Part shown: piece by piece, positions 2,024 through 40,270 of the stretch
How positions within the stretch are numbered: the stretch's first letter is position 1
How the letters are laid out: each line of letters opens with the position of its first letter
DNA from: Candidatus Woesearchaeota archaeon
GTDB lineage: Archaea; Nanobdellota; Nanobdellia; Woesearchaeales; UBA10216
NCBI GenBank assembly: GCA_016192905.1
Contig: JACPTG010000004.1
Span: 237,734-283,780 of the forward strand
Direction: 5' to 3'
Length of the DNA stretch: 46,047 nucleotides
Program-made: the position numbers and the translations under genes
The notes under the pieces: generated by a model
Databases searched by the model: none
What the model was told of the DNA's origin: nothing
Seen by the model: only the letters and a program-made list of their open reading frames with translations

Positions 2024-5000
2024 TTACATGTCGCATTTGCTGAAGCCACACTCGTCGTTAAGGCAGGACTGGCATCCAGCCTCAACCTTCATAGTCTTCA
2101 TGCCGCATTCAGGGCAGACGCTAAGCTTAACACCCTCAACAACAAGGCCTGCCTTCTCTGTGGCGATGACAACCCCCTGCTCCTCAGGAACATTGGCTGC
2201 GAATACAAACATCCCGTTGTCCTTCCTAAGCTCACCCGCCTTAAGGGCGTGATAAACAGTGGTCAGCCTGCCATCAGGGTAAGCAAGCAGGTCGTCCCCA
2301 TGCATAACCCTCTGCTCCCCCTCAACGTCAAAGGACTGCTCCTTCACCCGCTGGAAGTCGCTTGCCTCAGATTCCACGCTTAGGATCGGATACCTTGAGC
2401 CCTCCCTGTAAACCGTTATGCCCTTAAGCCCATGCTTCCACGCATCAAGATAGATATTTGAAATTGTCTCAGGCTCAACATCCTCAGGAAGGTTTACTGT
2501 GGAGGATATGCTGTGGTCAATGTACCTCTGCCACAGGCCTTGGACAAGAACCCTCTTCTTCGGCTCAATATAATGCGATGTCCTGAAGAAGTGGGCAGGC
2601 AGAACCTTTGAAAGCTCATCCGGGCCCTCAGTCCTGCGCACTGCCTCAACAAGGCCATGCTGATGAATGTACGCGTCAACAGTCGAATGGAAAACCCTGA
2701 ACAGCTGGTTCCCGAAGGACTCAGACCTCCTTGTATAGTACAGAGCGAAAATAGGCTCAATGCCCCCGCTGACGCCAATAAAATTGCGGCTGCCAATCCT
2801 ATAGCCGAGGACTATGCTTGAAATTGTCCCTGTCGGCGCAATTGACAGCAGGGCGATATTCCTCAGACCCTTCCTTCTTACCAGTTCCCTTGTCTCCTCA
2901 GAAAGGCACTCCTGAAAGAAGGCGCCCCTTGAATAAGAAGCGTAGTCAAAAATAGGCGAGGGAGACTTTTCCTCAGCAAGATTCGCAGAAGCCTCATAGG
3001 CTGTGTTGGCAATAAGCTTGGCCGCAACCTCAAGAATCTTCAGGCCCTCATCGCTGTCATAACCAACCCCAACCTGGTTAAGCATGTCAGCAATCCCCAT
3101 AACACCAAGGCCAAGACGCCTGGTCTCAAACGCCGCCCTGCGCTGCTTCTCCAGCGGATTCAGAATCTCGTTCCACGTAACGACATTATCCAGGAATCTT
3201 ATTACCGTATGGGTCGCCTCCCTGATTCCAGCCCAGTCAATCTCAGCGCCGTCAGTATAGCCGCGCTTCACAAACCTTGAAAGGTTTATCGATGCAAGAT
3301 TGCAGGCCCCGCCATCCTCAAGAGGGACTTCGCCGCAGTTATGCACCACCATGCCGTTTGCGATAAAAGAATGGGTTTCAGGCTCGGTTATATCCCAAAC
3401 TTCCCTTTTTCCAACAAATTCCTTTGACTTAACCTTGTCGGTGAAGCTCTCGCTGTAAAATTCAAAGCCCCTCAAGGCCTCAGTCTTATCCCTATTCTTT
3501 TGCTGGGCAAAAACAATCTTTGCAATGAATTTCTTCACATTTTTCTTGCTGATGTTAAGCTCGAAATTAACACCTGACGTCTTATACTTTACCAACTCTC
3601 CTTCCTTGTTAATATATCTAAATGTTTTAGCCGCGGTTGACCTGTCGTATATGCTGCTCCGGATGCCCATGTTCAACAAAATCAATTGGACTTGTTTCAG
3701 CAGCTTAACCGAGCTTGAATTAAGCCTTACATAGTTCCTGCTTTTGCTCCCCAAGCCGATTGTCCCATCTGAAGAGAACAAACCCTCCAGGAAGCCTACA
3801 ACTGCCTCCTCTGTCGCAGTGAACAGAGTTACAGGAACCTCCCTTTCCTCCCCAGCCCCTTTTACCCCCAGTTTTTTCAAAAAATCGATCAAATATTTGC
3901 TGGACGACCTTATTTGAACACAACCATTGTCATATTTCACTTCCTTTATTTGCCGGTTGCAATAATTCTCAAATATAGGCTGGATTAACCTTCTTGCGTC
4001 TTCATCCTCTCTTGCAAATACAAGCCCTGCCTTATGATAGCTCTCATTGTAAAATCCATCTCCAACAAACCAACCAAGAAGCATTCCAAGATCCCTACTC
4101 CACTCAGTTGGAAGATTAAGTTCATATTTTCTGCCATTCTTCCCAATTATTGAGTTTTGAACAGCGAAAGGCAGCTTTGCATCCTTATTAAAAAGGCCTT
4201 CACCTGACTGAATGAGTATATTGTCATCCTCGGCTATAGCCTGCATCTCCTTCCACCCTTCAGTCGTAAGAATCTTATGATCTGCTGTAGCAACAACTTC
4301 ATAGCCCGACCTTGTCTCAAGCTTAAAGCAGTCTTTTACCCCACTCATCACTACTTGGCTCGGCTGAACGAGCCTTGTTCCTAACTGCAATAATCTCAGC
4401 CCTGCCCTTGAATCAACCATTATCTTTTCAGCCTTAATGCTATCAATCCTCTCAAGCCCTCTTTCGGTAGATACAAGGCTATCAGCTGCCACGCAGGGGT
4501 TAGTTGATGCAATCGGCCTGCCGACGTAATTTGAAGGGGAATACTTAGTCATAGTGGACCAGAAAATCAGGCCTGGCTCAGCAGTCCTGTAGTTGCCATC
4601 AATGAACATGTTCCAGAGCTTCCTTGCCTTCACCATGCGCTTAATCTCGCCGGTCTCCCTTGAATTGAAGTAAAGAAGGAAATCGCCAGCGTACCTCACG
4701 GCAAGGTCGTGTTCAGAGCCCGGCCTTGGAATAACGATGTCGCCGAACATGTCGCGGCGGGAATTGTCACACAGGTCCCCGGCTGAAAGCATGCCAGCGC
4801 CCTCCTCTGCAAGGAAGCTGTTAAGCTCTTCCACTGAGCCAAACGCCCTGAAAAGCCTGTACTTCCCGATTGGCTTGGAAGGAATGCCAAATGAGTAATG
4901 AGCAGTGCCGCCCTGGGCAATGCCAATGCTGGAAACGTCCTTGCCCTTAAGATAAACAAGCAGCTTGCCACCAAACATGTTCTGCTCCTCAACAGCCTGC

Positions 5001-6175
5001 ATGAACTCGTCGCTTATCTTAAGGCTGATGTTCGCAAACCTCACCTGGGTGTTCTCACGAACCTGCCTCTCAACCTCCCTAAGCTGCGCCTCGCTGAACT
5101 TGCCAGACCACTTGCACTGCTGCACAATCTGGCTTGTAACCCAATTCGGAATTTTTTTTGCATTTACAAATAGCGGGCTGTCAGGATTCTTGATGTCAAT
5201 AGTGAGCATCAGGGCGCCGCGCCTTCCGGACTGTCCTATAAGGCCTGTCGTAAGCGAGAACAGCTCCATGAAGGAAACGCTTCCTGTGGAGCTGTCAGCC
5301 GCATTATGCACAACAGAATCCTTGGGCCTCAAAACAGAGATATCAACTCCAATGCCACCCCCGTAAGAATAAGTGCGCGCGCACTCGTAAGCAGCATCGT
5401 AAATTGAATTAATGCTGTCATCGGCTATCAGCGATACAAAGCAGTTGGCCATGGTCTTAAGCCTGTACAGGTCTCCTCCGCCAGCTATAACCCTGCCTCC
5501 AGGCAGAAAATGGCCCTCGTAAAGCGCAAGATAGAACTTCTCAGCCCACTCAACCTGCCTTGAAGGCTCCTCAACAGCAGCCATAAAAGCAGCGAGCCGA
5601 GCAAATACATCCTCAGGCCGCTTCTCAATATGCCTGTTCGCAAGTTCCTTCAGCAAGTACTTCTTCTGGTAAATGCTGGTCGCAAGCTCATTGCCGTTAA
5701 GGTAGTCTGATGGATGGACAGGCAGGGAGCCATCAGCCTGCTTATCCTTAATGTGAAACAGCAGATTCTTGTATGATTCTATCCGGTCATAGCCGATTAT
5801 TGAAGCAAGCTTGCTCTTATGGGCAAACATGTCAAGCAAGGCAGTCCTCTCAGAGTCGCCAAGCTTTCTTGACTCATTGGCCGCAGCCCTCAACTCAGCC
5901 CGCTTGGCCCTGTAAAGGATATATGCCTTCGCGGTCATGGCATGGCCCTCCTCAATAAGGACCTTCTCAACAACATCCTGAACCTGCTCAACCCCTGGAA
6001 GGCTGCCAGGGCCAAACTTCAGCTCCAGCTCCCTCACCACATTTTCAGCAAGCTTCTCAGCAGTCTTCCTATCCCTGCCTCCAACAGACTGGACAGCCTT
6101 GAAAATGGCATTAACAATCTTCTCCTTCTCAAACCTAGCCACCTTCCCGTCCCTCTTCCGGATCTGCGAAATCAT
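2024..6175 (-). CDS. nrdJ: Adenosylcobalamin-dependent class II ribonucleoside-diphosphate/triphosphate reductase, intein-containing
   Basis: Reduces ribonucleotides to deoxyribonucleotides using adenosylcobalamin to make the active-site thiyl radical. The precursor has 1383 aa. Order: ATP-cone (1-95), reductase barrel with the first redox cysteine in MANCFVSLI (Cys245), intein (561-946), then catalytic NPC|GE, partner cysteine ACNLASINL, phosphate loop APTGTIS (1113-1119), SGGIEPIFALYY, and a C-terminal cysteine cluster CPECGMK...CQSCLNDECGFSKC typical of NrdJ. Without the intein it is about 997 aa. An 11-12 residue insertion (about 1122-1133) lies right after the phosphate loop and is not normal for the family. 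TATA-like ATTTAAATAA sits near 6243-6252. First gene of the dNTP operon. The codon pattern is more A/T-rich within the intein than outside it. Confidence 0.93.
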   Translation of the reverse strand: MISQIRKRDGKVARFEKEKIVNAIFKAVQSVGGRDRKTAEKLAENVVRELELKFGPGSLPGVEQVQDVVEKVLIEEGHAMTAKAYILYRAKRAELRAAANESRKLGDSERTALLDMFAHKSKLASIIGYDRIESYKNLLFHIKDKQADGSLPVHPSDYLNGNELATSIYQKKYLLKELANRHIEKRPEDVFARLAAFMAAVEEPSRQVEWAEKFYLALYEGHFLPGGRVIAGGGDLYRLKTMANCFVSLIADDSINSIYDAAYECARTYSYGGGIGVDISVLRPKDSVVHNAADSSTGSVSFMELFSLTTGLIGQSGRRGALMLTIDIKNPDSPLFVNAKKIPNWVTSQIVQQCKWSGKFSEAQLREVERQVRENTQVRFANISLKISDEFMQAVEEQNMFGGKLLVYLKGKDVSSIGIAQGGTAHYSFGIPSKPIGKYRLFRAFGSVEELNSFLAEEGAGMLSAGDLCDNSRRDMFGDIVIPRPGSEHDLAVRYAGDFLLYFNSRETGEIKRMVKARKLWNMFIDGNYRTAEPGLIFWSTMTKYSPSNYVGRPIASTNPCVAADSLVSTERGLERIDSIKAEKIMVDSRAGLRLLQLGTRLVQPSQVVMSGVKDCFKLETRSGYEVVATADHKILTTEGWKEMQAIAEDDNILIQSGEGLFNKDAKLPFAVQNSIIGKNGRKYELNLPTEWSRDLGMLLGWFVGDGFYNESYHKAGLVFAREDEDARRLIQPIFENYCNRQIKEVKYDNGCVQIRSSSKYLIDFLKKLGVKGAGEEREVPVTLFTATEEAVVGFLEGLFSSDGTIGLGSKSRNYVRLNSSSVKLLKQVQLILLNMGIRSSIYDRSTAAKTFRYINKEGELVKYKTSGVNFELNISKKNVKKFIAKIVFAQQKNRDKTEALRGFEFYSESFTDKVKSKEFVGKREVWDITEPETHSFIANGMVVHNCGEVPLEDGGACNLASINLSRFVKRGYTDGAEIDWAGIREATHTVIRFLDNVVTWNEILNPLEKQRRAAFETRRLGLGVMGIADMLNQVGVGYDSDEGLKILEVAAKLIANTAYEASANLAEEKSPSPIFDYASYSRGAFFQECLSEETRELVRRKGLRNIALLSIAPTGTISSIVLGYRIGSRNFIGVSGGIEPIFALYYTRRSESFGNQLFRVFHSTVDAYIHQHGLVEAVRRTEGPDELSKVLPAHFFRTSHYIEPKKRVLVQGLWQRYIDHSISSTVNLPEDVEPETISNIYLDAWKHGLKGITVYREGSRYPILSVESEASDFQRVKEQSFDVEGEQRVMHGDDLLAYPDGRLTTVYHALKAGELRKDNGMFVFAANVPEEQGVVIATEKAGLVVEGVKLSVCPECGMKTMKVEAGCQSCLNDECGFSKCDM
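3338..4495 (-). mobile_element. Intein with LAGLIDADG homing endonuclease in NrdJ
   Basis: 386 residues (561-946 of the precursor). It begins with Cys (CVAADSLVST, splicing block A), has block B TADHKILT, two dodecapeptide endonuclease motifs LGMLLGWFVGDG and VVGFLEGLFSSDG with the catalytic acidic residues in place, block F near VWDITEPETHSFIANG, and ends VVHN before Cys+1. Joining the flanks restores the uninterrupted family sequence STNPCGEVPLEDGG. The +1 cysteine is the residue equivalent to the thiyl-radical cysteine (E. coli NrdA Cys439). Both endonuclease motifs look intact, so the element may still be mobile. The site matches a known insertion point in archaeal reductases (family knowledge). 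Confidence 0.93.
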
Positions 6176-39014: not shown

Positions 39015-39142
39015 TGGGGCCTCTGGGATTTGAACCCAGGACACCTACGGCTTCAGCGTAGTGCTCTCCTAAGCCGAAGCTGCACATCTTCTCAGGCTGA
39101 GCTAAGGTAATGGTCCTGCGAGCCCTGACTCACAGAATCCCC
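39015..39142 (-). tRNA. tRNA-Phe (anticodon GAA) with two non-canonical introns
   Basis: Exons 39139-39142 (4 nt), 39093-39107 (15 nt) and 39015-39069 (55 nt) give a 74-nt tRNA: acceptor GGGGCCT/AGGCCCC, A73; D-arm GCTC-AGCCTGGGA-GAGC; anticodon arm CTACG-CTGAAGC-CGTAG; T-arm CTGGG-TTCAAAT-CCCAG. Intron 1 (39108-39138, 31 nt) splits the acceptor stem after nucleotide 4: central helix ATGG/CCAT, bulges GGA and TAC, outer stem TTCTGTGAG/CTCGCAGGA. Intron 2 (39070-39092, 23 nt) splits the D-loop between G18 and G19: helix AGCC/GGCT, bulges TGA and TAG, outer stem GAAG/CTTC. Both are textbook BHB motifs. Splicing restores every stem perfectly. No CCA encoded. Confidence 0.95.
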
Positions 39143-39194
39143 ATCTGATGCCCAGCCTAATTAATTTGAGCTTCCGGCCTTTTTAAATAGTTTT

Positions 39195-39705: not shown

Positions 39706-40002
39706 TTACTTCCTGGAAATAACTTCCAGAGTCCCATTCCTGCCCGTCGTAAGCTGCTTCTCGCCCTGCCACTCGTTGACGTAGCCGTTTGTCAGCCTTA
39801 CCTTGTCGCCGACCTTAACAAGGTCTGTCTGCTCATTCCAGAGAGTGAGGTTAATCTTCCCTGTCTTGTCCTGGGCAACCGCAGTCAGGACCTTTCCCAC
39901 ATTGCCAAACTTGCTGAACTCCCTCATCATGCCGAGCTCAACAATCTCCAGCTCCAACTCCACATTTCCCTGCTTTGCAACAAGGTCCTTCACATTATTC
40001 AT
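39706..40002 (-). CDS. Single OB-fold protein, RPA-like nucleic-acid binding
   Basis: 98 aa, one OB-fold of the archaeal replication protein A type: VKDLVAKQGNVELELEIVEL at the start, then GKVLTAVAQDKTGKINLTLW, DKVRLTNGYVNEWQGEKQLT and TGRNGTLEV. This is the usual pattern for RPA/SSB-like OB domains. Likely binds single-stranded DNA or RNA; no zinc finger or extra domain. Next to tRNA-Leu(CAG) on the same strand, 18 bases apart, so possibly co-transcribed with it. Confidence 0.85.
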   Translation of the reverse strand: MNNVKDLVAKQGNVELELEIVELGMMREFSKFGNVGKVLTAVAQDKTGKINLTLWNEQTDLVKVGDKVRLTNGYVNEWQGEKQLTTGRNGTLEVISRK

Positions 40003-40019
40003 AAGGCATCACCATGATA

Positions 40020-40122
40020 TGCGGGGGAAGGGAATTTCGACGCTACGCGATTCGAACCCTCGTACCCACTAAGGGACAGGCTCCTGAAGCCTGCGCATTT
40101 GACCAGGCTCTGCCACCCCCGC
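40020..40122 (-). tRNA. tRNA-Leu (anticodon CAG) with a T-loop intron
   Basis: 103 bases, exons 40051-40122 and 40020-40033. Acceptor GCGGGGG/CCCCCGC, A73; D-arm with CCTGGTCAAA; anticodon arm CAGGC-TTCAGGA-GCCTG; long variable arm; T-stem GAGGG/CCCTT. The T-loop reads TTCGAA then a 17-nt intron (40034-40050) then T, giving TTCGAAT when spliced. BHB-like: helix TTCG/CGAA, bulges AAT and ATT, outer CGC/GCG with one unpaired T. Mature length 86 nt, correct for Leu. Intron is at position 59/60. CCA is not encoded. Confidence 0.93.
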
Positions 40123-40182: not shown

Positions 40183-40270
40183 TGGGGCTGCGAGGATTTG
40201 AACCCCGATTTCGACCCTTTTCTCCAAATGACCCGAAGGTCGAGTGATAGCCAAGTTACACTACAGCCCC
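40183..40270 (-). tRNA. tRNA-Pro (anticodon CGG) with a short 37/38 intron
   Basis: 88 bases. Acceptor GGGGCTG/CAGCCCC, A73; D-arm GTG/CAC; anticodon stem CGACC/GGTCG; T-arm CGGGG-TTCAAAT-CCTCG. The anticodon loop TTCGGG is followed by 14 extra bases (40218-40231) before G38 and the 3' stem strand. Removing them gives a 74-nt tRNA with a 7-base loop. The BHB is weak: TTCG pairs with AGAA at only three of four positions, so the splice sites are less certain than in the other three tRNAs. Confidence 0.88.

Follow-up and report, generated by a model that had tools for sequence, protein, structure and literature searches.

The window analysed here, 46,047 nucleotides from the genome of a Candidatus Woesearchaeota archaeon (1.43 Mb, 95% complete), carries on its minus strand a gene for tRNA-Phe(GAA) at positions 39015-39142. 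We found that this gene is interrupted by two introns, one of 31 nt inside the acceptor stem, after nucleotide 4 of the mature tRNA, and one of 23 nt in the D-loop (Table 1). Removal of both introns yields GGGGCCTTAGCTCAGCCTGGGAGAGCACTACGCTGAAGCCGTAGGTGTCCTGGGTTCAAATCCCAGAGGCCCCA, a sequence of 74 nt that forms a faultless tRNA-Phe(GAA) cloverleaf and is read by ARAGORN as a clean, undisturbed tRNA-Phe. On the genomic sequence, ARAGORN returned a mispaired call of 71 nt; both ARAGORN and Rfam landed on the locus and built the 5' half of the tRNA partly from D-loop intron sequence. Standard tRNA finders misread the gene. Upstream of it is a small OB-fold-like gene (39750-40003, minus strand), which is also found directly upstream in the relative G158, a possible case of conserved synteny.

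Table 1. Features of the interrupted tRNA-Phe(GAA) gene, in the direction of transcription; positions are those of the window.
Feature	Position	Strand	Remarks
TATA box TATTTAAA	39181-39188	-	about -45 from +1
Leader element GGCTGGGC	39150-39157	-	can pair with GCTCAGCC on the 5' strand of the D-arm; complementarity reaches 39160 (11 bp, including two G-U)
Leader bases -2,-1 (AT)	39143-39144	-	first motif (BHB1): outer half of its central helix
Exon 1, tRNA nt 1-4, GGGG	39139-39142	-	+1 = 39142
Intron 1, 31 nt, acceptor stem after nt 4	39108-39138	-	10-bp inner hairpin
3' half of the BHB1 central helix, CCAT	39113-39110	-	
Exon 2, tRNA nt 5-19, CCTTAGCTCAGCCTG	39093-39107	-	
D-arm segment GCTCAGCC	39095-39102	-	pairing partner of the leader element; contains AGCC, which also lies in the central helix of the second motif (BHB2)
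Intron 2, 23 nt, D-loop	39070-39092	-	strict BHB, AGCC/GGCT
Exon 3, GGAGAGC... to discriminator A	39015-39069	-	no encoded CCA

Both introns are bounded by strict archaeal bulge-helix-bulge (BHB) motifs, that is, a central helix of 4 bp flanked by two bulges of 3 nt that are cut after their second base. In BHB1 the central helix is ATGG/CCAT and the bulges are GGA and TAC, while in BHB2 the helix is AGCC/GGCT and the bulges are TGA and TAG. An unguided solver, which lists candidate BHB introns and rates the cloverleaf left after splicing, ranked precisely this pair of introns above every other combination (total score 36.0, vs 25.9 for its best model without the acceptor intron). An earlier note, made from the letters of the sequence, had described the same two introns with their lengths, helices and bulges, and had claimed that cutting there restores the acceptor stem (GGGGCCT/AGGCCCC) and the canonical D-loop exactly; every element that it named is present, the solver picks the same cut sites, and we regard the two-intron tRNA-Phe gene as confirmed.

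Counted in mature nucleotides, the introns sit at positions 4/5 and 19/20, and thus neither at the canonical 37/38 position of archaeal introns nor at the 3/4 position of the Thermoproteales type. The 4/5 boundary of the window gene is unambiguous because every shift by one base alters the product; the sequence of the tRNA-Phe gene in the relative G122, taken alone, would permit 3/4. The position of the D-loop intron is common to three relatives of the same family (G001, G007 and G008).

The poor call of the standard finders is what would be expected if the locus were a degraded tRNA-Phe pseudogene in which the BHB motifs are coincidental, yet we give this reading hardly any weight. Among 200,000 random upstream segments taken from the window, a strict 4-bp BHB together with a 7/7 acceptor stem arose in 5, and one had an inner helix of 4 bp or more, the real inner helix having 10 bp; chance thus accounts for the intron-1 motif at a rate of at most about 2e-5. 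The spliced tRNA, moreover, is perfect. Another intact tRNA-Phe gene in the genome, which the earlier note had named as grounds for refutation, did not turn up: Rfam and pattern scans of the 95% complete genome, on which the uniqueness of the gene rests, found no second GAA tRNA. The pseudogene reading is also opposed by the recurrence of the intron position in eight families and by an intron-free congener of one carrier that has the identical mature sequence (G123 and G122, see below).

The host genome encodes the components that the processing of such a gene would call for. We identified one EndA gene (about 180 aa, 97 bits), whose product aligns Tyr, His and Lys with the catalytic residues, lacks the insert seen in the A. 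pernix EndA, and has the N. equitans and M. jannaschii EndA among its closest PDB matches. One rtcB gene (514 bits) and one archaeal RNase P RNA were also found. The nearest named relatives of the host GlyRS (58-77% identity) are mostly from Candidatus Woesearchaeota. Interruption of tRNA genes is common in this genome, as 24 of its 40 tRNA genes decoded with introns, many of them at noncanonical positions, some of these calls being less certain than that of tRNA-Phe.

We searched 353 Woesearchaeales genomes with the 3' junction pattern CCANNNCNNTAGCTCAGNCTG and obtained 18 matches, compared to 0 for a reversed control pattern. A tRNA-Phe gene with an intron after nucleotide 4 was present in 15 of the 353 genomes (the host genome, G056, G084, G093, G120, G122, G145, G149, G151, G155, G160, G168, G241, G242 and G287), a lower bound because the pattern fixes part of the motif. 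These carriers belong to eight families (f1, f10, f25, f37, f38, f39, f50 and f58); the gene of G093 ends at the contig end, after the anticodon loop. The introns are 28-43 nt long, mostly 30 or 31, with conserved ends (ATT...ACCAGAA) and an inner hairpin that covaries. A second pattern, applied to 371 genomes of the phylum, recovered 9 of the 15 carriers plus one false match, and gave no 4/5 intron in the 172 genomes outside Woesearchaeales (sister orders).

Several candidates were set aside. Neither L185 nor L195, both matches to the junction pattern, is a tRNA gene, the phylum-wide match in G279 (L209) has no tRNA around it, and the match in G158 (L192) was not counted, as it has neither exon 1 nor the leader. 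Introns that the solver placed after nucleotide 1 or 2 (L060, L098, L107, L117, L121, L175 and L176) were also rejected, since contiguous acceptor stems scored within 0.7 of them.

Two genomes of one genus, G122 and G123, share an identical mature tRNA-Phe of 74 nt, which is interrupted by a 43-nt acceptor-stem intron in G122 and by none in G123. Some tRNA-Phe genes were found to carry more introns than that of the window: five in G168 (L194) and four in G155 (L191) and G160 (L193), each restoring a perfect 74-nt tRNA-Phe. The gene of G151 also decodes to five introns, although its T-loop intron is beyond the length limit of the solver and the cloverleaf is incomplete. The noncanonical and multiple BHB introns of Thermoproteales, Thaumarchaeota and Nanoarchaeota resemble these in their splice motif, in their D-loop and T-loop positions and in the presence of several introns per gene, but the maximum cited for an archaeal tRNA gene is three (PMC8450103, PMC3293823), which the four- and five-intron genes of Woesearchaeales exceed.

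We then considered the 5' leader. In all 15 carriers an 8-mer located 5-7 nt before +1 is complementary to nucleotides 10-17 of the D-arm (7 or 8 of 8 pairs), while at least 7 of 8 pairs were present in only 3 of 102 intron-free tRNA-Phe genes of the order. The mean duplex energy was -15.6 kcal/mol for 14 carriers and -5.5 kcal/mol for 101 intron-free tRNA-Phe genes (p=1.5e-9); because the carriers are related, such p-values overstate their independence. The two strands covary at nucleotide 16: a D-loop C16 faces a leader G in 12 of 12 genes, and A16 faces a leader U in 3 of 3 (families f37, f38 and f39). In particular, G120 and G122, members of one family, differ by exactly this compensatory double change (C16-G to A16-U). 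The covariation of the whole structure among the carriers was matched by 0 of 500 shuffles, and 91% of the cells are paired, compared to 29-50% in slid versions. Minimum free energy folds of the junction region contained the leader:D-arm helix in every carrier.

The promoter is displaced as well. A TATA box (7-8 of 8 matches) was found in all 15 carriers, typically at -41 to -48, whereas in the intron-free tRNA-Phe controls it lies mostly at -30 to -35 (median -35). This displacement of about 11 nt upstream leaves room for the element in the carrier leader.

The leader:D-arm duplex would constitute the outer helix of BHB1, given that exon 1, with the intron placed after nucleotide 4, is too short to supply one. 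The earlier note had seen the leader bases AT as half of the helix in the first motif, which holds for the host gene and is conserved in part. The T at -1 was present in 15 of 15 carriers, against 57 of 102 controls, and every carrier has the conserved leader:D-arm helix; at -2 a Watson-Crick pair occurs only in the host and two relatives, the other 12 carriers having an A opposite G or C.

A different account accepts both introns as genuine and as EndA substrates, yet gives the leader:D-arm complementarity no part in splicing: it would be inherited, or serve as a promoter element or an RNase P antideterminant, and the order of processing would not be fixed. Shared ancestry of the carriers agrees with this, and so does the gene of G005 (L067), a member of the host's family that has kept the long leader and the D-arm-complementary element and has no acceptor intron, probably the remnant of a recent intron loss. 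The thermodynamic model also offers it some ground, because the native leader did not raise the probability of the central helix relative to shuffled leaders (0.22 vs 0.19, p=0.55). However, the near restriction of the element to carriers and the compensatory changes at nucleotide 16 in three families are not what this account predicts, the spacing of the element from +1 is variable (5-7 nt), unlike that of a DNA motif, and G123, which lacks the intron, lacks the element too and has a shorter promoter spacing, while G122 has both intron and element. We consider a leader without a role in splicing unlikely.

Modelling of the full precursor points to what the leader may do. Without a leader, nucleotides 1-4 paired with the 3' end at a mean probability of 0.90, which fell to 0.30 with shuffled leaders and to 0.04 with the native one. 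As the central helix reached only a modest probability with the native leader, no higher than with shuffled ones, the computed effect of the native leader is mainly to block premature pairing of the acceptor stem. The folding model therefore backs an anti-acceptor role of the leader, and by itself is no proof that the BHB forms.

Returning to a leader that takes part in splicing, we consider it very likely, from the sequence, that the locus is a functional and single gene for tRNA-Phe(GAA) with two BHB introns processed by EndA and RtcB, a splice site built with the leader, and splicing ahead of trimming. The archaeal splicing endonuclease would cut both introns and RtcB would join the exons. 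At intron 1 the leader would stand in for the missing outer helix, its last two bases completing the central helix and its element of 8-11 nt pairing with the 5' half of the D-arm, so that splicing of this intron would take place on a transcript that still has its leader and a D-arm kept open. Once the exons are ligated, the acceptor stem could form, the leader would come free, and RNase P would trim it. RNase P needs the acceptor stem; since this stem is complete only after splicing, and since BHB1 needs the leader, splicing of intron 1 should come before 5' trimming. The leader and the D-loop intron also share the AGCC of nucleotides 14-17, which would make BHB1 and BHB2 mutually exclusive and their removal sequential. 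Transcription, cleavage and the order of these steps are what we infer from the arrangement of the locus. The wider proposal, that the leader is an obligatory cis cofactor which builds the acceptor-stem splice site via the D-arm, that splicing precedes RNase P, that the promoter has moved upstream, and that intron and element were gained or lost largely together across Woesearchaeales, is in our view probable.

Leaders of tRNAs are usually viewed as disposable. If the proposal is true, the leader is needed to fold a splice site and imposes an order of splicing and then trimming, opposite to that measured in Methanopyrus, where the 3' end, the 5' end and the modifications precede the introns (PMC3695527); the splice-first order here would be an exception. 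The canonical 37/38 introns have the BHB motif and the EndA/RtcB chemistry in common with the introns described here, but they spare the acceptor stem and so allow RNase P to cut before splicing, as happens in Methanopyrus (PMC3695527). The presence and absence of the intron within one genus, together with the covarying leader helix, make both the processing order and the gain and loss of the intron directly testable.

Acceptor-stem introns as such are already known, at position 3/4 in certain Thermoproteales (Sugahara et al. 2008, cited in the review PMC4090602). Those introns are likewise BHB introns within the acceptor stem and leave a very short first exon, but the intron of the window gene lies unambiguously at 4/5 and occurs in another lineage and gene set; neither a leader:D-arm outer helix nor a promoter shift is described for them in that review. 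In the literature searched, mostly without subscription journals, we found no description of the 4/5 position, of its restriction to Woesearchaeales tRNA-Phe (in these screens), or of the leader helix.

A parallel to a splice site built from outside the tRNA comes from the split tRNAs of Nanoarchaeum equitans and Caldivirga, in which the BHB is likewise formed through base pairing of a non-tRNA flank; in the window gene this part falls to the 5' leader in cis, which pairs with the D-arm and would be removed by RNase P, not by EndA. Since Nanoarchaeum and Crenarchaeota have split tRNAs (PMC3218864), exon 1 of the window gene might be a chance match whose true counterpart is encoded elsewhere and joined by trans-splicing. 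The exons of a split tRNA are on separate transcripts, whereas in the window exon 1, the hairpin intron, the splice motif and the remaining exons are contiguous behind a single TATA box, and we regard a split gene here as extremely improbable. The tRNA-Phe gene of G158 (L192, positions 640-670) does lack exon 1 in cis: there is no leader, no exon 1 and little of intron 1, and the TATA-box TTTTAAA directly joins CCAGAAC. A deletion between short repeats, an assembly error or a split gene are the candidates; the arrangement suggests a deletion bounded by TTTTAAA repeats, and a search with one pattern found no trans-encoded 5' piece.

We also recorded other interrupted genes in the host. Two further tRNA genes lie on the minus strand of the window: tRNA-Leu(CAG) at 40020-40122, with a 17-nt T-loop intron (40034-40050), was missed by ARAGORN and fell under the Rfam cut-off, and tRNA-Pro(CGG) at 40183-40270, interrupted close to the anticodon by a short intron (about 40218-40231), was labelled only tRNA-??? 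by ARAGORN. Isoacceptors such as Asp-GTC, Thr-GGT and Val-GAC were absent from the tRNA scan results. The initiator tRNA-Met in the C1:602818 region (L042) apparently has three introns, and a tRNA with the anticodon UAU (Ile; L025) has two. A lone tRNA 3' fragment at C6:149468 (L041, L181), consisting of the T-arm and CGGGCCCA, may be an integration remnant or a split half; no 5' half was found within 2.4 kb. A ribonucleotide reductase ORF of 1383 aa (2024-6175 of the window, minus strand) shows by eye an apparent intein, from about CVAADSLVSTERGLERI to SFIANGMVVHN. Finally, rtcB itself carries two strict BHB introns of 29 and 30 nt (contig C2, L211, about 112795-112823 and 112896-112925), with central helices AGGG/CCCT and TAGG/CCTA and inner helices of 9-10 bp. 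Their removal restores an RtcB of 472 aa, so that RtcB would be required for ligation of the mRNA that encodes it.
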